Assembly: GCA_021228405.1 (NCBI GenBank)
Contig: JAJQRF010000011.1
Location: 62,001-126,000 of the forward strand
DNA: 64,000 nt
Source of the DNA: Pyrinomonadaceae bacterium
Lineage (GTDB): Bacteria > Acidobacteriota > Blastocatellia > Pyrinomonadales > Pyrinomonadaceae
Reading direction: 5' to 3'
Shown here: positions 408-20,533 of the stretch, piece by piece
How the letters are laid out: every line of letters begins with the position of its first letter
Position numbering within the stretch: position 1 is the first letter of the stretch
Program-made: the position numbers and the translations under genes
The notes under the pieces: generated by a model
The model's database searches: none
What the model was told of the DNA's origin: nothing
Seen by the model: the letters and a program-made list of their open reading frames with translations, nothing else

Positions 408-608
408 TTTTTACGTTAATTTTCCTTAATTTCAGAGTTTGAAAACGCTAAGATTATCACAATTTGAAAGATGAGCCAAAACAGCTTTTCATAAGTGATA
501 ACGGATAACTGATAGCTGATACTTCAATCCCAAATTCGATCACATTTCTTTGTGAGCACGTTTCTGACTCATCACTCTCGCTTTATAAGCTCTTTTTTTA
601 CTCAAAAA

Positions 609-810
609 CATACCAAATGGTATGTCAACGCTCTGTGAAGTGCGAAAACATACGATTTGGTATATAAACGCTCTCCACAGAAGGTTGACGCACTCTACAG
701 AAGGTTCAACGTTCTGTGAGGTGCGAAAACATACGATTTGGTATGTTTTCGCACCTCACAGAAGGTTCAACGTTCAAAAAAGTGCGTCAACGCTCTCCAC
801 GAAACGACGG
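609..810. repeat. Tandem mosaic array, about 20-bp period, 10 units
   Basis: This lies in the 450-bp gap upstream of tdk, which has no convincing gene. Unit anchors (the C after AA) fall at 609, 629, 649, 669, 689, 710, 730, 750, 771 and 791, so the spacing is 20 bp with two steps of 21. Each unit is a 16-nt core plus a 4-5 nt spacer such as AAAA or TCAA. Cores are combinations of half-words, for example CATACGAT+TTGGTATG, CGCTCTGT+GAAGTGCG and CGCACCTC+ACAGAAGG. The last is nearly the reverse complement of CGTTCTGT+GAGGTGCG two units earlier. A small ORF across it looks fortuitous. Confidence 0.85.
713..762. repeat. Perfect 22-bp inverted repeat inside the 20-bp array
   Basis: Arms 713-734 and 741-762 are exact reverse complements around the 6-nt loop GATTTG. 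The hairpin is formed by one array unit and its inverted neighbour. As RNA or cruciform DNA it would be very stable. There is no T-run after it on either strand, so a terminator role is not supported. Confidence 0.85.
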
Positions 811-3526: not shown

Positions 3527-4024
3527 TCATTTTTTTTCAGGCGGTTTAAGATTGCTGTAGCCGTCCACCTGAAAACGCCATTTGCCGTCTTTTTCCCTGA
3601 CTACAACCGTCACGAATTTGCCCTGTCCGCTTCCTGCATCCTTGCCGTCTTTATACTGCCGGATCGTGTAAATGCCGACATCGTAAGCCAGATTTTTATC
3701 TACTTTACGCTGAAAAATTTGGAAAGAAATCGTCATCGTCCGTCCTTCCGTTTTGACCCAATCGAAAAACGATTTGAATGTCGGAATAATCGCCTCGCGC
3801 CCTTGCAGAATATTGTCATCAGGCGGCAAATACGCGGCTTTTTCCGTGTAAAGGTTCGCCACTTTTTCGACATCTAAGGTGCGGTAAGCCTCGCTAAACG
3901 CTCTGTAACTTGCGTCGATTTCCTTGTGTGCCGAAACCCCTTTTTCCAATATTAATTCGGAATTTTGTGCCTTAATGCTAATTGAAAATAACAATAATAA
4001 AGATAAAGATATAAGTGTTTTCAT
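3527..4024 (-). CDS. Secreted SnoaL/DUF4440-like (NTF2-fold) protein
   Basis: 165 residues with a clear signal peptide (MKTLISLSLLLLFSISIKAQ). The mature part has the NTF2-like pattern of an early helix (YRAFSEAYRTLDVEKVANLY), the phrase YLPPDDNILQGREAI, and late strands ending in GKWRFQVDGYSN, all typical of DUF4440/SnoaL-like proteins. Members of this fold are often small ligand binders or isomerase-like; no catalytic residue can be assigned. It follows the zinc-ribbon gene by 3 bp and has its own terminator, so it is probably the last gene of the run starting with the VWA gene. Confidence 0.75.
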   Translation of the reverse strand: MKTLISLSLLLLFSISIKAQNSELILEKGVSAHKEIDASYRAFSEAYRTLDVEKVANLYTEKAAYLPPDDNILQGREAIIPTFKSFFDWVKTEGRTMTISFQIFQRKVDKNLAYDVGIYTIRQYKDGKDAGSGQGKFVTVVVREKDGKWRFQVDGYSNLKPPEKK

Positions 4025-8605: not shown

Positions 8606-9904
8606 TTAGACTTTAGAATCTAAAAAATGTTTGAGATATTCGAGAGTTTTTTCGGTCGCGCCGCGATTTTTATTCATCACTTCAAACGCATTTTCGCCTA
8701 GTTTTCGGCGCAGATCGTCGTCTTTGAGAATTTTGGAAAGTTCTTCGGCAAATTTGTCGGAAATTTCGTTTTCTTCCAATTTCGGAAGCTGAACAAGAGC
8801 ATTTTTTTCGAGAAATTCCTTCACGACCGCCGTAAAATTCATCGTGTAAAAGCCCGTGACGATTGCTTTTCCGTTCAAAGCAGGTTCCAAAACGCTTTGT
8901 CCGCCGTGCGGAATCAGACTTCCGCCGACAAAAACCATTTCGGCAAGCGGATAAACCGCACGAAGCTCGCCGATCGAATCGAGCAGGATGATTTCCGCCG
9001 TTTTGTCGCGCTCAGATTCGCTTTGCGAACGCCGAACGAATGAAAAACCCGTTTCTTTGATGAGATTTGCAACTTCTTCAAATCTTTCTGGATGACGCGG
9101 AACGAGCATCAAACGCGGAAGTTTTTCGGGAGAATTTTTGAAAACCTGCTTGAAAACATCGAGAATCCATTTTTCTTCGGGCGCGTGTGTGCTGGCGGCG
9201 ACAATCAGCGGCGCGTCTTCGTTCACAGCAAATCTTTCGCGGAAGATTTCCGTCAGATCGTTTGTTTCCGGCTTTTGGTCGAATTTGATATTTCCCGTCA
9301 CTTTTACCTTCGACGGGCGGATTCCGAGTTGTAAAATCCTTTTCGCATCAGCCTGACTCTGCATCAAAGCGAGATCAAGCCGACGCAAAACGCGTTCGAT
9401 AAAACTTTTGACAAACGAATAATTTCTGACCGATTTTTCCGAAAGTCTACCGTTGACAAGCGCGATGAAAACGCCGTTTTTGTTGGCTTCGCGGATAAAA
9501 TTGAACCAAAGTTCGGTTTCCATTATCAAAACCGCTTTCGGTTTGAAATGTTTGAGCGCACGATTGACCGTAAACTTCCAATCGAATGGAAAATAAAAAA
9601 CTTTTTCGGCAATTGTTTTGAATATATTTTCGGCGAGTTCCTGACCCGTTTTGGTCGTGGTGGAAACGACGATCCGATAATTCGGAAATTGTTTTTTCAA
9701 TTCTTCGATCAGAGGTTTAGCGGCGTTCGTTTCGCCAACCGAAACGCAATGAATCCATAAAACGGGATTTTCATTTTGCGTAAATTCAGGCAAATAACCC
9801 ATTCTCTGCCAAAATCCGGCGGCATATTTCGCCCTTTTCAGCAAAAAAATCGGCGACATAAAAATGAAGCCGACGGTCAGAAGAAAACTGTAAATTTGAA
9901 ACAT
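8606..9904 (-). CDS. waaA: 3-deoxy-D-manno-octulosonic acid (Kdo) transferase
   Basis: Inner-membrane glycosyltransferase that adds Kdo from CMP-Kdo to lipid A precursors, so the organism probably makes Kdo-containing lipopolysaccharide. It has 432 residues, the usual length. The N-terminal membrane anchor (IYSFLLTVGFIFMSPIFLL) is followed by the family phrase WIHCVSVGETNAAKPLI, then METELWFN and the C-terminal FVGGSLIPHGGQSVLEPA that lines the donor site. It starts at ATG 9904. Whether it adds one or more Kdo residues cannot be read from the sequence. Confidence 0.93.
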   Translation of the reverse strand: MFQIYSFLLTVGFIFMSPIFLLKRAKYAAGFWQRMGYLPEFTQNENPVLWIHCVSVGETNAAKPLIEELKKQFPNYRIVVSTTTKTGQELAENIFKTIAEKVFYFPFDWKFTVNRALKHFKPKAVLIMETELWFNFIREANKNGVFIALVNGRLSEKSVRNYSFVKSFIERVLRRLDLALMQSQADAKRILQLGIRPSKVKVTGNIKFDQKPETNDLTEIFRERFAVNEDAPLIVAASTHAPEEKWILDVFKQVFKNSPEKLPRLMLVPRHPERFEEVANLIKETGFSFVRRSQSESERDKTAEIILLDSIGELRAVYPLAEMVFVGGSLIPHGGQSVLEPALNGKAIVTGFYTMNFTAVVKEFLEKNALVQLPKLEENEISDKFAEELSKILKDDDLRRKLGENAFEVMNKNRGATEKTLEYLKHFLDSKV

Positions 9905-9921
9905 TGTAGTTTACGGGAAGT

Positions 9922-10007
9922 TTGCAGGTAGTTTTCAGAAAGTTCACAGGAAGTTGATAAAAGTTTATTTTCCTAAACTCTGCAACTTTCTGAAAACTAC
10001 CTGCAAA
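9922..10007. repeat. 24-bp perfect inverted repeat between waaA and efp
   Basis: Arms 9922-9945 and 9984-10007 are exact complements (core GCAGGTAGTTTTCAGAAAG) around a 38-nt loop. The element fills the gap between two minus-strand genes. No T-run follows on the minus strand, so a simple terminator is not clear. Confidence 0.8.
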
Positions 10008-10019
10008 TTTTCCAAAACC

Positions 10020-10583
10020 TTACTTCACTCTTTCCATATAGCGCGCTTCGGCAGGATTTACTTTGATCTTTTCGCCTTCGACGATAAACGGCGGAACGTA
10101 TAAAGTTACCCCGTTTTCGAGCGTCGCGGGTTTGTTCGAGTTTGAAGCGGTCGCGCCTTTCATCACGGGTTCGGTCGTGACGACGGTCAATTCCATCGAA
10201 CTGGGAAGCGAAACGCCGATCGGTGTGCCGTTGTAAAATTCGACCTCGATCTTCAAATTCGGCATCAGCCATTGCGCCGCGTCGCCGAGCTCGTCTTCGG
10301 TCAATGAAACCTGTTCGTAGGTTTCCGTATTCATAAAGTGATGATGCGTTCCGTCGGAATAGAGATATTCCATCGCTTGCTGTTCGAGCACGACGCGGTC
10401 GAGCGTGTCGTTCGAGCGGAAACGATGCTCAAACGAGTTTCCCGTCAAAAGATTACGCAGGCGCGTCTGCACCATTGCGCGAAGGTTGCCCGGCGTGTGA
10501 TGACGAAATTCCATCACTTTGCACGGCGCACCTTCAAATAATAAAACCATTCCTTTTCTGATGTCGTTAGCCTGAAGTGCCAT
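10020..10583 (-). CDS. efp: Elongation factor P
   Basis: Binds between the P and E sites of the ribosome to relieve stalling at polyproline. It has 187 residues and three beta-barrel domains, as usual. The N-terminal KOW-like domain holds RHHTPGNLRAMVQTRLRNL. The tip residue that is a modified Lys34 in E. coli or Arg32 in Pseudomonas is Asn33 here, so known beta-lysylation or rhamnosylation cannot occur at it. The C-terminal OB domain ends GEKIKVNPAEARYMERVK. Confidence 0.95.
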   Translation of the reverse strand: MALQANDIRKGMVLLFEGAPCKVMEFRHHTPGNLRAMVQTRLRNLLTGNSFEHRFRSNDTLDRVVLEQQAMEYLYSDGTHHHFMNTETYEQVSLTEDELGDAAQWLMPNLKIEVEFYNGTPIGVSLPSSMELTVVTTEPVMKGATASNSNKPATLENGVTLYVPPFIVEGEKIKVNPAEARYMERVK

Positions 10584-10689
10584 AAATTCTGTTTAAATCT
10601 CCGTATGTTATAAAATTTTCGATATTTGCAAAAGAGTTAGTTTAATTTTTGTGAGGCGATTTTGTCTAGTCGGAGCGTTTACAAGATGC

Positions 10690-10719
10690 GAAAACCGCCG
10701 ACAAATTCCGGCGGTTTTC
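10690..10719. terminator. Hairpin downstream of a small secreted-protein gene
   Basis: GAAAACCGCCG (10690-10700) pairs with CGGCGGTTTTC (10709-10719). It sits 25 bp past the stop of the gene ending at 10745 and the minus-strand 3' side reads TTTTCGC. It is probably a terminator with a weak U tract. Confidence 0.6.
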
Positions 10720-10744
10720 AAACTAAAATTTGAACTCCGAACTT

Positions 10745-11128
10745 TTATTTGACCGAAACGTTCAATTTGTAACTTCCGCGCCAAGGGTCGGCTTTCATAC
10801 ATTCGACGACGATTATCTTGTAATCGCCCGCGACGGTCGGCGAAATTTCGGCGCGTCCGTTACAGCTTAAATCCCTGTCCATCACGTCTTCGCCCGATGG
10901 ATCAACGACCGCGAGAGTTACGGAACGGTTTGAATCGACTTTCAAAGTCTGTCCTTCACGAACGCGCAAAACGTAAGTGTCTTTGCTTTTATAACCGTTC
11001 ATCGTTCCCGTTACGACGGCTTTCGTCGCGCCTTTTTTGAAATAAATTCGCTTCGCAGGTTTGGCGAAAACTGCTGATTGCACGCCAAGAACGATTAAAA
11101 CTAAAATACTCGCAATTAATTTTTTCAT
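10745..11128 (-). CDS. Small secreted beta-sandwich protein
   Basis: 127 residues with a signal peptide (MKKLIASILVLIVLGVQSAV, cut after VFA). The mature part (FKKGATKAVVTGTMNG, YVLRVREGQTLKV, TLAVVDPSGED, PTVAGDYKIIVVE, GSYKLNVSVK) has the strand pattern of bacterial pre-peptidase C-terminal-like domains, with the phrase AGDYKI typical of them. No enzyme motif is seen. Cysteines in LSCNGR and VVECMK could form a disulfide. It is likely periplasmic or cell-surface; partner unknown. Confidence 0.7.
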   Translation of the reverse strand: MKKLIASILVLIVLGVQSAVFAKPAKRIYFKKGATKAVVTGTMNGYKSKDTYVLRVREGQTLKVDSNRSVTLAVVDPSGEDVMDRDLSCNGRAEISPTVAGDYKIIVVECMKADPWRGSYKLNVSVK

Positions 11129-11169
11129 TTGCTTTTTTCCCTGATCCGGATGTATCGATCCGCTCCGTC

Positions 11170-11703
11170 TTATTTTTTGATCGGCATCGGCGGCGGTTCT
11201 TCGCCTTCTTTCGGCGGTTCGCGTCCGATGCTTTCAAAAATGCTGATGATCTGATCGTGCATTGCTTTTGCTTCCGTATCGTTCGGATTGAGCTTCAAAC
11301 CTTTGCGGAAATCGCCGAGCGCGGCACGGTATTGCGCCGCTTTGGTAAGCGCAAAAGCGCGTTCAAAATAAGCGGCGGCAAGCGTTTCCTTCGCTTTTGC
11401 GTCGGTCGTTTTCGCTTTGTATTCCTTGTCCGCCTTTTCGATCTTGGCGGTCATTTCCGAAACGTCAACCGCTTGCTGATTCGGCGAACCGACCGATGTT
11501 TTGTCGCTTTCGGTTTTCGGCGGTGCGCTTTTTTCGGTCGAATGGCTCGAAACCAGCCCCGAATCGTTCATCGCGGGTTTGGTCGCCGCGACGGTCGAAT
11601 TATTTACCGCATTTTGTGCCGAAGTATTGGCGGTTTGCTGATTTGCATTGCCGCATCCGATCAAAAATAAAGCCGATAAACTTAAAATCGTTATGTTTTT
11701 CAT
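11170..11703 (-). CDS. TPR-like lipoprotein
   Basis: 177 residues. The lipobox (ALFLIGC) predicts an outer- or inner-membrane lipoprotein. A Ser/Asn/Thr-rich linker precedes a helical region with a TPR-like unit (AAYFERAFALTKAAQYRAAL followed by GDFRKGLKLNPNDTEA) and a proline-rich tail. ATG at 11703 is preferred over the TTG six bases upstream. It lies 41 bp from the next minus-strand gene and may be cotranscribed with it. Role is likely protein-protein contact; nothing more can be said. Confidence 0.7.
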   Translation of the reverse strand: MKNITILSLSALFLIGCGNANQQTANTSAQNAVNNSTVAATKPAMNDSGLVSSHSTEKSAPPKTESDKTSVGSPNQQAVDVSEMTAKIEKADKEYKAKTTDAKAKETLAAAYFERAFALTKAAQYRAALGDFRKGLKLNPNDTEAKAMHDQIISIFESIGREPPKEGEEPPPMPIKK

Positions 11704-11799
11704 ACTCAATCAATTTAACCAAAAAATATTCTGCGCTCAAACAAAAATAAATCACATTTCTTAACAGCGAAACACAAATAAATTCATATGAGCGACCAC

Positions 11800-13767
11800 T
11801 TATTTCTCGATATAAGGGCGCGACTGAACGATGTAAATCTTGCCGTCCATAATTCCCCATTCGATGTCCTGTTCCTTTTTCCCGCCGAAAGTCGTGCGGA
11901 TATTCAAGGCGATCTTTGCCAGATTGCGCGACTGCTGATCGGTCAAAACGCGTTTCTGCGTGTTGACACATTTGTCGGGCGATTCGACCAAACCGCCGTC
12001 CGGGTCGAAAACGAGCGAATTTTTCTGATCGGAAAGCGTCATCACGATCACCGAATTCGATTTCGGATTAAATAAAATCTGTTCGGGAATGCCGTTGTTG
12101 TTGACGACGTTCGAGTTGTGTCCGCAAACCGCGCTGATGTAAACGGAATTTCTGTTTTGCGCGTCGAACGGGTCTTTCGAGATCATCACGCCGCCGCGAT
12201 CCATATCGACGCTCAATTGGATCAAAGCGGACATATAAACGCTTTGCTGATCGACATAATTTCTGACGCGTGCTTCATACGCTTCAAACTTCCAGAGCGA
12301 AGCCCAGACTTTTTTCACGGCTTCGATCAGTTTTTCTTCGTCCTTCACGTTCGGAACGCTCGAATAAAGTCCCGCGCCCGAAAAATTCGGCAAATCCTCG
12401 GCGTTCGACGAGCTCCGCACGAAAACCGACCTGCCGCCGAGCTGAGTTTTCCATTTTTGAACGATCCCGGCTTTTAACTCGTCGTCAAACTTCCCGTTTT
12501 GAATCGCCGTGCGGAGTTCTTCCAATTTCTGACGGCGGTAGCGCGGATTATGGATAAAGTCGTTTTCGTCCAGTCGCTCTTCGATGACTTTGTCGAAACC
12601 GTTGTCGCGCATAAATTTATCATACCAGTAAAACGGAACGGTGAAGCCGTCGGGCACGCTGAAACCGACCATTTTCGAGTTGAGCATTTCACCTAAGTTA
12701 GCCGATTTCGCACCGAAAGCAATACTGTCTTTTTGACGCATTTCTTTAAGCGGCGTGAGTTTTTTAACGTTCAAATTCGCCGGAGCATTGCGCGGCGCAA
12801 CGCATTTATCGGGAAATTGTTTGCAGAAATCTTCGATTACTCCCGATTTTTCAACTCTCTTTATTTTGTAATCGGTCAGTTTTGCGTCGAGTTCGACCCA
12901 CCACGTATCAAACTCCTTGAAAAGCTTGTCGGCATCCTTGATGTAAACGTTCGGCACGTTCCAGCCTTTTGCCAAAATATTGATATGCGAAAGCGGCGTT
13001 GAAGGTTTGGCAACGATGATGCCGCGCACAGGCGGCAAGCTGATCGGTAATTCCTTCAGAATGATGATCTCGTTGTCCCCGATCTCAACCGTGTCGTCCA
13101 GTTTATCGATGATGTGAATTCTGCCGACGGCTTTTCCGGTATTTAAGGCAAGATATTCCTGATTTTTGTTGAGCTCGTCCTGCGTCACGCGTTCAAAACC
13201 GAGATTTGACGATTCGTCTTCCTGGCGAATCGAGTTCGGTTTGTAAAATACGGGTTTGAAAAACGATTTGTTGATCGCCGTATTCGCAATCTTCAGATGT
13301 TCCGCTTTCGCCAGATCGCCTTCCCAGAGTTCCCAGGTCCATTTCTCGACCGTTTTCTGCCACGCAATCGTGCCGACGATAAAACGGCGGTCGTCGTTGT
13401 AATAAGCGGTTTTGTAAATGTCCGAACCAATCGGCACGAGCTTCATCGCGTAGAGAAAATCCTTGTGAAAACGGAATATTTGCGAATTCACATAATAGAT
13501 TTTGTTCTTGTTGCGGCGGTCGATGATGAACATCGCGTGCGGCAGAGCATAGGGCGTGTTTTGATGATATGTGCGCCCGATCGAATCGAACGCGGCTTGC
13601 GAGGGAATTCCCGGCAAATAGGTTTTGTTCGTTTTCGGTTTATTCGACATCGCGCCGGCGGGTTCGCGGGTCGCGCTCGGCTTGCGCGACATCTGCGCGG
13701 CGGCAAACGAATTTCCGAAAACGATTGTCAGCAGTAATAAAAAACAACTCAGCGAAGTTTTCTTCAT
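11800..13767 (-). CDS. Secreted PEP-synthase/PPDK-like phosphotransferase, domain-permuted
   Basis: 655 residues with a signal peptide (MKKTSLSCFLLLLTIVFGNS). Residues about 215-300 resemble the swivelling phosphohistidine domain (KPSTPLSHINILAKGWNVPN, with the His in the SH pair). Residues about 335-650 resemble the ATP-grasp PEP/pyruvate-binding domain (FGAKSANLGEM, VFVRSSSNAEDLPNFSGAGL, GIMDGKIYIVQSRPY). This order, His domain before ATP domain, is that of glucan water dikinases and the reverse of PEP synthase. No PEP-binding barrel is seen. Export from the cytoplasm is odd for an ATP-using fold. Confidence 0.75.
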   Translation of the reverse strand: MKKTSLSCFLLLLTIVFGNSFAAAQMSRKPSATREPAGAMSNKPKTNKTYLPGIPSQAAFDSIGRTYHQNTPYALPHAMFIIDRRNKNKIYYVNSQIFRFHKDFLYAMKLVPIGSDIYKTAYYNDDRRFIVGTIAWQKTVEKWTWELWEGDLAKAEHLKIANTAINKSFFKPVFYKPNSIRQEDESSNLGFERVTQDELNKNQEYLALNTGKAVGRIHIIDKLDDTVEIGDNEIIILKELPISLPPVRGIIVAKPSTPLSHINILAKGWNVPNVYIKDADKLFKEFDTWWVELDAKLTDYKIKRVEKSGVIEDFCKQFPDKCVAPRNAPANLNVKKLTPLKEMRQKDSIAFGAKSANLGEMLNSKMVGFSVPDGFTVPFYWYDKFMRDNGFDKVIEERLDENDFIHNPRYRRQKLEELRTAIQNGKFDDELKAGIVQKWKTQLGGRSVFVRSSSNAEDLPNFSGAGLYSSVPNVKDEEKLIEAVKKVWASLWKFEAYEARVRNYVDQQSVYMSALIQLSVDMDRGGVMISKDPFDAQNRNSVYISAVCGHNSNVVNNNGIPEQILFNPKSNSVIVMTLSDQKNSLVFDPDGGLVESPDKCVNTQKRVLTDQQSRNLAKIALNIRTTFGGKKEQDIEWGIMDGKIYIVQSRPYIEK

Positions 13768-18446: not shown

Positions 18447-19427
18447 TTAATCTTCCTTGATTTCCTCGCGCACGATCTCTTCGGGTTGGGTTGCGGGTTT
18501 GCGAAAACGTAATCTTTTCCAGAAATAACGCAAAACGAGATAGATCGGTAAAAGAACCAACAGCACGAACGGTAGAATTGCGATCAGAAACGTGATAAAG
18601 CCGAGCACGAAGCTCATCGCAAAATCGAAACCGTTGCGGATGGAATCGGTCAGACGATAGAAAAATCCGCCCGAATTCGGCGTAAACGCGGTTGGCGTTT
18701 GCAGATGTATTCTGATCGTTGAAAGACTCGCCTGATTTTCGAGAAAACGCTTGCGACCTTCGATCTTTTCGATCTCGCCGCGCACTTCGGCAAGCTGTTT
18801 CTGCACGTTCAGCGCGTCTTCGACCGAATTTGCGCGTTTCATTATTTCGAGAAACTGTTCTTCGAGCGCACGTTTCGCCTTCAAACGCGCTTCGATGTCG
18901 ATAAATTCTTCGGTTACGTCCTGACCTTTGACCGTTTCGACGATCACGCGATTCGCGCTTTTACGGATTTCTTCGAGCGTTTCGGCAAATTTTTCCGCCG
19001 GAACGCGCACCGTCATCGTGACAATATCACGCGAAACGGCTTTCACATCGCGACTGCTTTGCGTCGATTCGACGACGAAACCGCCTTTGCTTTCGACAAT
19101 CGCAGAAATTTTCTTCTGATCTTCTTCGGGCGAATCAGTTTCAAGTTGAAGATCGGCGTTGCGGATGATTTTCCGTTCGACGGGTTTGACGGGTTCGGTC
19201 GGATTTTTATCGCCGGTTTCGAGCGAAACCTGATTTTGCGCGATCAATTTTTCGCTCGTATCTTCGCGTCCGCCGCCGCCGCCGCCCGTATTTCTCGCCA
19301 AATCGGGCTGACTGCTCGGCGCAGATGTTGAAATATCTTCGCTTTGCTGACTTTTTTCGGCACTTGCACAGGCGGCAAATATTACTGCCAGTAAAATAAG
19401 GACTGAAATTATTTTTGCTCTATTCAT
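18447..19427 (-). CDS. DUF4349 lipoprotein
   Basis: 326 residues. ATG at 19427 is chosen because GGAG precedes it and the lipobox (VIFAACAS) fits; a longer reading frame only runs into the repeat array. After a Gly/Ser-rich linker, residues about 90-270 match DUF4349 (VKPVERKIIRNADLQLE, VTMTVRVPAEKF, EEFIDIEARLKAKRALEEQF), with a coiled coil of VRGEIEKIEGRKRFLE type, then a membrane segment (FLIAILPFVLLVLLPIYLVL). Function of the family is unknown; it is envelope-located. Confidence 0.85.
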   Translation of the reverse strand: MNRAKIISVLILLAVIFAACASAEKSQQSEDISTSAPSSQPDLARNTGGGGGGREDTSEKLIAQNQVSLETGDKNPTEPVKPVERKIIRNADLQLETDSPEEDQKKISAIVESKGGFVVESTQSSRDVKAVSRDIVTMTVRVPAEKFAETLEEIRKSANRVIVETVKGQDVTEEFIDIEARLKAKRALEEQFLEIMKRANSVEDALNVQKQLAEVRGEIEKIEGRKRFLENQASLSTIRIHLQTPTAFTPNSGGFFYRLTDSIRNGFDFAMSFVLGFITFLIAILPFVLLVLLPIYLVLRYFWKRLRFRKPATQPEEIVREEIKED

Positions 19428-19460
19428 AATTTTCTCCGACGGAAATGCAGAAATCGTTTT

Positions 19461-19754
19461 TGCCCGCAAATAATCTTTTTTCGCCGGCAAATTTACTTTT
19501 TTCGCTCTCCGAGAATATTTATTTGCCGGCAAATAATATGTGTTTGCTGGCGGAGAAAGTTATTATGCTCTCCGGGAAAGTTCATTTGCCGGCAAATAAA
19601 CTCTGATTGCTCTCCGAGAATGATTTTTTGCTCTCAAAATATCTCTGTATGCTGGCGGAGAATGTTTATTTGCACTCTAAAGTGATTGGTTTGCGAGCGG
19701 AAAAACTTTCTCCGCCAGCAAACACATATTATTTGCGAGCGGATTTTGCTTTCC
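19461..19754. repeat. Tandem mosaic array, exact 21-bp period, 14 units
   Basis: This fills the 337-bp gap upstream of the DUF4349 gene; no gene lies in it. Anchoring on the G of (T/C)GC, units start at 19462, 19483, 19504, 19525, 19546, 19567, 19588, 19609, 19630, 19651, 19672, 19693, 19714 and 19735: every step is 21. Each unit has a 16-nt core of two half-words, for example TTTGCCGG+CAAATAAT, TTTGCTGG+CGGAGAAA and TTTGCTCT+CCGAGAAT, then about 5 AT-rich bases. Cores recur in both orientations. Confidence 0.93.
19532..19733. repeat. 30-nt perfect inverted repeat within the 21-bp array
   Basis: 19532-19561 and 19704-19733 are exact reverse complements over 30 nt, including the spacer bases on both sides of the core TTTGCTGGCGGAGAAA. 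Inversion or copying therefore acted on units with their spacers. The arms are 142 nt apart. Confidence 0.9.
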
Positions 19755-19764
19755 AAAAAACAAA

Positions 19765-20391
19765 TTAACCTGCTTTTTGGGCGACTTCCTTGAAGCTTTC
19801 ACCGCGAAACAGTGCGCGAATTCCATTGAATAATCGTTTGAAGGCGCGAAAAACCTTCGGCGTAAACCAGATGAAAAAGATCGTGAAAAGGATCAGGACA
19901 ATTGCAATGACGATCGGCGCGAAAACGGCAAGAATCGAACCGACAAAAGCGATCACGTCTTCGACGAGCGATAAAATCCAGTTTGAAACGGGTTCGGGCG
20001 AAAGATTCGCTCCGGCGCGAAGCGCGGCTTTCGTGCCGTGCGAAGAAAGAGCCAAACCGCCGCCGAGCAAAGTTGCGATCGTATGAACGCTCGTATCCAT
20101 CTCATTCGTCGCCGCATATGCGACGACCGCGCCCGCCGGAACGCGGATAAACGTGTGAACGACATCCCAAACGCTGTCAACGTATGGAATTTTGTCGGCG
20201 AAAAACTCGATGAGATAAAGCCCGCCCGCCACGCCGATGATCCACCAATTATCCAGAACATCCAATCCGCCGGGAAGCTTCGTAAAAGCGAATTTCTGCA
20301 AAATTCCCAGCACGGCAACCGTCGCATAAAGATTAATGCCCGATGTCCAAGCCGTTCCCAGAGCCAAACTCAATGTCGAAAACCATTCCAT
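19765..20391 (-). CDS. DUF4126 membrane protein
   Basis: 208 residues. ATG at 20391 is chosen for the strong AGGAGGAG site upstream; an earlier in-frame start lacks one. The N-terminus WFSTLSLALGTAWTSGINLY and the phrases GGLYLIEFFADKIPYVDSVWD and LSSHGTKAALRAGANLSPEP are typical of DUF4126. At least four hydrophobic stretches predict an inner-membrane protein, and the end is amphipathic. Function of the family is unknown. Confidence 0.88.
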   Translation of the reverse strand: MEWFSTLSLALGTAWTSGINLYATVAVLGILQKFAFTKLPGGLDVLDNWWIIGVAGGLYLIEFFADKIPYVDSVWDVVHTFIRVPAGAVVAYAATNEMDTSVHTIATLLGGGLALSSHGTKAALRAGANLSPEPVSNWILSLVEDVIAFVGSILAVFAPIVIAIVLILFTIFFIWFTPKVFRAFKRLFNGIRALFRGESFKEVAQKAG

Positions 20392-20533
20392 TCGATTCTC
20401 CTCCTGCTGCTCGAAATCAGCATAAAACAAAACGCTTTTTTGTCCGATTTGTTTTGAGTTTCAAACATTTAATCACAAAAGGCGGAAAATTAATAAATTC
20501 CCGCCTTAAAATTCCTGAATTCTTAACCGATTT

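Follow-up and report, generated by a model that had tools for sequence, protein, structure and literature searches.

The 21-bp array between the DUF4126 and DUF4349 genes of this Pyrinomonadaceae genome is one of dozens of like arrays and is not unique as a type. It belongs to a class that is defined by the DNA helix and not by a common sequence. Our preferred reading, held with about even confidence, is that the helix constrains the array, which probably has an architectural protein bound to it or wrapping it and has grown by local duplication and inversion. The window, a stretch of 64,000 nucleotides, corresponds to positions 62001-126000 of contig C13 in a genome of 5.72 Mb on 20 contigs.

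The focal array and its neighbours

After trimming to the limits given in Table 1, the register was unchanged through all of the approximately 14.5 units of the focal array. The autocorrelation was 0.52 at lag 21, 0.60 at lag 42 and 0.59 at lag 63, while the maximum obtained with 500 dinucleotide shuffles was 0.37. The maximal direct repeats of at least 6 nt were mostly spaced by exact multiples of 21 bp (33 of 41), and higher-order repeats of 42 and 63 bp were also present. No off-register units were found within 126 bp on either side. The initial annotation had described fourteen units at an exact 21-bp period, with spacing kept more strictly than sequence, and both descriptions were borne out.

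The cores were TTTGC-NN-GCAAA, TTTGC-NN-GCGGAGA, GCTCTCCGAGAA and similar words, and both orientations occurred. Column conservation was heterogeneous (p = 0.002), the cores being conserved and the spacers freer. The units were palindromic with alternating orientation (z = 4.7 against column permutation), and comparison of the array with its own reverse strand gave a best self-match of 69% over 208 bp. The centres of the 14 longest inverted repeats all shared one value modulo 10.5 bp, and the dyads formed two interleaved sets offset by one turn. Inversion was seen directly as a perfect inverted repeat; the initial annotation had recognized it as perfect but gave its length as 30 nt, which is corrected here to 33 nt.

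Stops were present in all six frames of the array, and no Rfam family matched anywhere in the window at the curated cut-off. A second locus for the array was not found in the part of the genome that was read (next best E = 1.5), and a shared dispersed element of the REP type was thereby ruled out for it. The Pfam names of both neighbouring genes were confirmed. The array had been placed directly upstream of the DUF4349 gene; its full setting is between the DUF4126 and DUF4349 genes.

Table 1. Coordinates of the arrays, cores, inverted repeat and neighbouring genes in the window
Feature	Position	Strand	Remarks
Second array	600..810	.	Fractional ruler, about 10.1 bp per turn
Weaker array	9904..10019	.	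10-11-bp words, long inversion; downstream of EF-P
DUF4349 protein gene (PF14257)	18447..19430	-	Start codon 18 bp from focal array
Focal array	19449..19752	.	About 14.5 units, 21 bp exactly; dyad-symmetric cores, variable spacers
Core TTTGCCCGCAAA	19459-19470		Variant of palindromic core TTTGCCGGCAAA
Palindromic core TTTGCCGGCAAA	19522..19533	.	Recurs at 19585-19596
33-nt perfect inverted repeat, left copy	19529..19561	+	Core, spacer and core
Mixed core TTTGCTGGCGGAGA	19543..19556	+	Identical word on minus strand at 19709-19722
33-nt perfect inverted repeat, right copy	19704..19736	-	Centre on 10.5-bp dyad lattice
DUF4126 protein gene (PF13548)	19765..20430	-	Stop codon 12 bp from focal array; coordinates are the longest open frame, true start codon may be further in

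Arrays of the same type in the genome and in relatives

About 1.28 Mb of the genome was fetched and scanned together with the window, giving 1.34 Mb of 5.72 Mb (23%). A count of loci at lags 20 and 21, as suggested in the initial annotation, gave 12 and 31 loci, respectively. Lag 19 gave 1 locus and lags 22 and 23 none, and a Markov surrogate gave none at any lag. A more sensitive scan of the same 1.34 Mb yielded 50 candidate arrays, whose median size was 11 units (about 230 bp). At least one candidate (contig C4, 254307) probably lies inside a real coding sequence and one on contig C3 is a recent perfect repeat; with these set aside, about 45 of the 50 were of the array type. Scaling of 40-50 arrays in 1.34 Mb gives an estimate of about 170-210 arrays for the whole genome. 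Within a near-perfect 21-bp repeat, the array at C20 19374-19564 (locus L058) has an assembly gap, written as a run of N. On C13 (locus L051) an A/T-rich repeat region that includes a 19-bp tandem part occurs twice, at 237-407 and 3644-3833. Its copies are about 81% identical, and this pair is probably unrelated to the helix-phased arrays.

The period was also determined without a preset lag, by fitting periods of 7.5-14.5 bp to maximal exact repeats of at least 6 nt in 260-bp non-coding windows. In the 1.34 Mb, 47 loci exceeded Z 5, compared with none in the Markov surrogate. Seven of them were a single CRISPR array on contig C16, which served as a positive control. In this array (about 8900-11900, locus L054) the period is about 66 bp and the repeat is GTTTCAATTCCAGATTGGTTCAATTAAAAG. 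The remaining 40 loci were all helical in period, 11 at 9.9-10.15 bp and 29 at 10.35-10.55 bp, in agreement with the earlier reading of 21 bp as two helical turns.

Several of the arrays at 9.9-10.15 bp, among them the second array of the window and those at C18 225083-225249 and C4 27080, had word distances of 20, 40, 61, 81, 101/102, 121/122, 142 and 162 bp. Within the second array itself the distances were 20, 40, 61, 81, 121/122, 142 and 162 bp. In such arrays the spacing follows multiples of about 20.2 bp and does not drift. A helical ruler explains this, but copying of a unit fixed at 20 or 21 bp does not. Of all the observations, this fractional ruler speaks most strongly for a constraint by the DNA helix.

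Words were mostly specific to one locus, and in the part of the genome read they were shared by pairs and triples of loci at most. The words CATACCAAATGGTATG and CGCACTCCACAGAAGGTT of the second array also occurred at C18 225083-225249 and C7 898665-898726, and one other array family had 2 loci. On contig C4 the stretches 162477-162632 and 244480-244635 have about 155 bp in common at about 90% identity. The shared stretch covers about 50 bp ahead of the arrays at 162528 and 244521 and their first units, after which the sequences diverge. The diverged later parts both retain word distances at multiples of 21. Judging from the sequences, the pair appears to be a case of segmental copying of array starts.

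A dyad-symmetric unit (p < 0.05) was found in 27 of the 50 arrays (Stouffer z 16), chiefly in the 21-bp group, while the 20-bp arrays were mostly non-palindromic. Column conservation was uneven in 32 of the 50. A uniform purine-to-pyrimidine polarity at the dyads was not found across the arrays (10 vs 10). In the 20-bp arrays the 10.0-bp harmonic carried both an A/T-G/C signal (z 11.7) and an AA/TT signal (z 9.5); part of the signal in this group could stem from descent from 10-bp repeats. The 21-bp arrays had a purine/pyrimidine signal at 10.5 bp (z 7.3). Bending was calculated with two dinucleotide models (roll and wedge) against column-permuted arrays. The bending excess at 10-10.5 bp was strong in the 20-bp arrays (Stouffer 10.0 and 8.7 with the two models) and moderate in the 21-bp arrays (3.8 and 5.5); with symmetry kept in the null, the values of the 21-bp arrays were 3.7 and 3.0.

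The gene contexts of the arrays, determined with simple open frames as gene calls, were convergent in 18 cases, tandem in 25 and divergent in 2, and 2 arrays were inside frames. The comparison set, gaps of 150-900 bp that hold no array, had 41 convergent, 173 tandem and 79 divergent cases (chi-square p 8e-6; convergent vs divergent, p ~3e-6). The convergent excess and the divergent deficit indicate that the arrays sit mainly behind genes, at their 3' ends.

The relatives compared were Pyrinomonadaceae and other Blastocatellia MAGs, none of them of the same genus. A DNA search with the focal array in 60 relatives gave two chance short matches only. At the DUF4126-DUF4349 locus the 21-bp array was absent from about 14 fetched relative loci, a few of which were duplicates of one genome, and the spacing between the aligned gene parts was mostly 48-358 bp. 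The locus of one other array of the genome was inspected in about 20 relatives, none of which had an array there. The initial annotation had counted a lack of periodicity at the focal locus in relatives against its reading. Literally, this is what was found in the fetched relative loci; the result demonstrates a lineage-specific origin and not an artefact. When the same period scan was applied to sequence from relatives (about 2.2 Mb, of which about 372 kb is non-coding), it gave 4 loci of helical period, two in G013 and one each in L149 and L190, compared with 40 loci in 1.34 Mb of this genome, where the open-frame mask leaves about 160 kb of non-coding DNA. In the non-coding DNA of relatives such arrays are thus roughly 20 times rarer, a figure for which the non-coding masks differ somewhat.

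Inverted arrays built from short words lie downstream of EF-P in this genome (the weaker array of Table 1) and in several relatives, and the words change between genomes. In one other Acidobacteria MAG this array (L141, 915-1080) is related in style, with words every 10-11 bp.

No histone fold was found in 40 genomes. An expansion of HU was likewise not found, the number of HU-family genes being ordinary. In these two groups, histone folds and the HU family, the search thus gave no DNA-binding protein that is particular to genomes rich in arrays.

Alternative explanations

The main rival, which we consider somewhat unlikely, is a neutral process whose steps are set by the helical turn. The arrays would be neutral or selfish minisatellites that arise by slippage and by fold-back template switching at palindromes behind genes, with no function for the cell and with a step that the copying machinery holds close to two helical turns. 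Adjacent units were more similar than distant units (Stouffer 6.2), and ordinary local tandem duplication therefore also operates; the initial annotation had considered a copying process, and local copying does contribute. The 42/63-bp higher-order repeats and the 33-nt perfect inversion about a dyad agree with such copying, as does the fact that the arrays are lineage-specific and missing at orthologous sites. In addition, most members of the family have a weak canonical SbcD or none, and palindromes may therefore be tolerated. However, relatives without arrays also have a weak or absent SbcD, and its weakness was rejected as an array-specific cause. MutS is present, and loss of mismatch repair was rejected as well.

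The register is also difficult to reconcile with neutral copying. The mean unit identity within arrays was 57%, yet the register was kept without drift, and off-register units were absent within 126 bp of the array ends in 33 of 41 arrays. Indels in bacteria are usually several-fold rarer than substitutions, yet they are not absent. Such divergence without loss of register suggests that indels which break the register are purged by selection, although detection by lag favours arrays that are in register. Finally, the fractional 20.2-bp ruler is hard to obtain by copying of units.

An action at the RNA level, as stacked hairpins that end or protect transcripts, is improbable. The location at the 3' ends of genes would suit such a role, and for the palindromic arrays either strand gave very good folds (z about -3 to -20). 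However, about one third of the 21-bp arrays and most of the 20-bp arrays folded weakly or not beyond shuffles, and control convergent gaps folded about as frequently as the arrays did. As the non-palindromic, non-folding arrays have the same pitch, the pitch and not the hairpin is the common property, and a pitch of 20-21 bp is not required by RNA hairpins. Compensatory covariation between paired positions inside units was looked for and was not found. The missing Rfam match in the window also speaks against an RNA element.

Still less probable are gyrase-wrapping sites analogous to the BIME-2 elements downstream of genes in E. coli. Gyrase sites of E. coli show phased G/C variation with a period of 10.75 bp, and there is an enrichment of these sites behind operons with high transcription (PMC6379681). 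They resemble the arrays in their helically phased composition and in lying downstream of genes. However, they do not need repeated words, and their attraction to downstream regions is reported not to be hard-wired in the sequence. The arrays have periods of 10.0-10.15 or 10.5 bp instead, A/T-G/C phasing of about 10.75 bp over 130 bp was not detected in them, and the 21-bp group had no A/T-G/C signal at 10.5 bp.

A decayed coding sequence with 7-residue repeats, the alternative named in the initial annotation, has next to no probability: 21 is divisible by 3 and spurious long open frames cross many arrays, but 20-bp and fractional arrays are not multiples of 3, the units are palindromic, the position is intergenic, the focal array has stops in six frames, and the gaps of relatives are short here.

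Known systems and proposed action

Literature searches, incomplete in their coverage, returned REP/BIME elements, VNTRs and abundant intergenic heptamers, but no arrays with these properties. REP/BIME elements of E. coli and other bacteria share with the arrays palindromic units, alternating orientation and mosaic arrays outside genes. REPs, however, are dispersed families with a common sequence and more than 100 copies per genome (PMC2817692, PMC3733652), whereas the words of the arrays are mostly specific to one or to 2-3 loci, and it is a 10.0-10.5-bp helical ruler that defines the arrays. VNTR or minisatellite arrays of bacteria are likewise tandem, intergenic and more similar between neighbouring units. 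The arrays described here differ from them in their identity of about 57%, the lack of register slips, driftless fractional spacing, inverted units in register and, in the part of the genome scanned, exclusively helical periods. A head-to-tail fixed unit of high identity, as expected of a minisatellite, was not found, given the 57% identity and the fractional spacing in several arrays; the earlier statement that the focal array is not a simple tandem repeat thus holds.

Heptamer simple repeats are common in intergenic DNA of prokaryotes (PMC6344855). They resemble the arrays in being intergenic and periodic, and 21 is 3 x 7, but the arrays showed no excess of matches at lags 7 and 14, where values were at or below background, and a heptamer origin was ruled out. 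In the intergenic DNA of this phylum such repeats (lags 14, 21, 28 and 35) are common in L155, L196, L210 and others and are distinct from the arrays. The focal array is not a CRISPR either, as had been stated before. In place of near-identical repeats with unique spacers it has diverged units and recurring spacers, and the real CRISPR array of the genome differs from it.

Iterons and the parS/parC centromeres are phased arrays of binding sites that occur at one or few loci and have one cognate protein. By its sequence the focal array would be classed with such phased arrays, as it has constant helical spacing, conserved cores and freer spacers. Dyad or direct cores, helical spacing and variable spacers are common to both. 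In contrast to iterons and centromeres, the arrays occupy dozens of loci, have differing words and are without a known protein. As the tests for membership of known systems failed, the array class is judged to be new, a judgement that does not prove that the literature lacks it.

Returning to the helix-constrained reading, the arrays consist of short words, mainly dyad-symmetric pairs, that recur at intervals of two helical turns through about 230 bp. There are two groups, the 21-bp arrays with 10.5 bp per turn, and the 20-bp and mixed 20/21-bp arrays with 10.0-10.15 bp per turn. Three observations favour binding or wrapping at the level of duplex DNA: the two preferred pitches match the helix, some arrays keep a fractional ruler, and the pitch is also found in arrays that are not palindromic. 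Together this suggests that one face of the helix is read or wrapped at the arrays. The phased words would most likely present equivalent contacts or bends on that face. A dimeric or filament-forming architectural protein could then bind cooperatively or wrap the array segment. Because the words differ between arrays, they cannot all depend on a single sequence-specific protein. The outcome might be a local structural or topological node between genes, such as an insulator, a supercoil sink or a transcription block, through which the arrays may influence the neighbouring genes. Local duplication of one or two units, inversions, and the transfer of copied array segments to other loci account for how the arrays form and grow, and changes that break the register appear to be removed.

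On this basis we tentatively propose, at somewhat less than even confidence, an undescribed class of bacterial chromosomal elements with perhaps 150-200 members per genome in this lineage. In it the words are free and the pitch is held at about 10.1 or 10.5 bp, and the members would serve as wrapping or filament-nucleation sites behind genes, comparable to nucleosome-positioning sequences. If the arrays are neutral, bacteria would have a way of copying repeats in lockstep with the helical turn, and this would be equally unexpected. If they are a functional class, they would be direct sequence evidence of a bacterial chromosome written with a helix ruler, in which the spacing is kept and the sequence is free. 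They would also help to work out how bacteria that lack histones might mark DNA for wrapping or bending, with dozens of natural test sites at two pitches.
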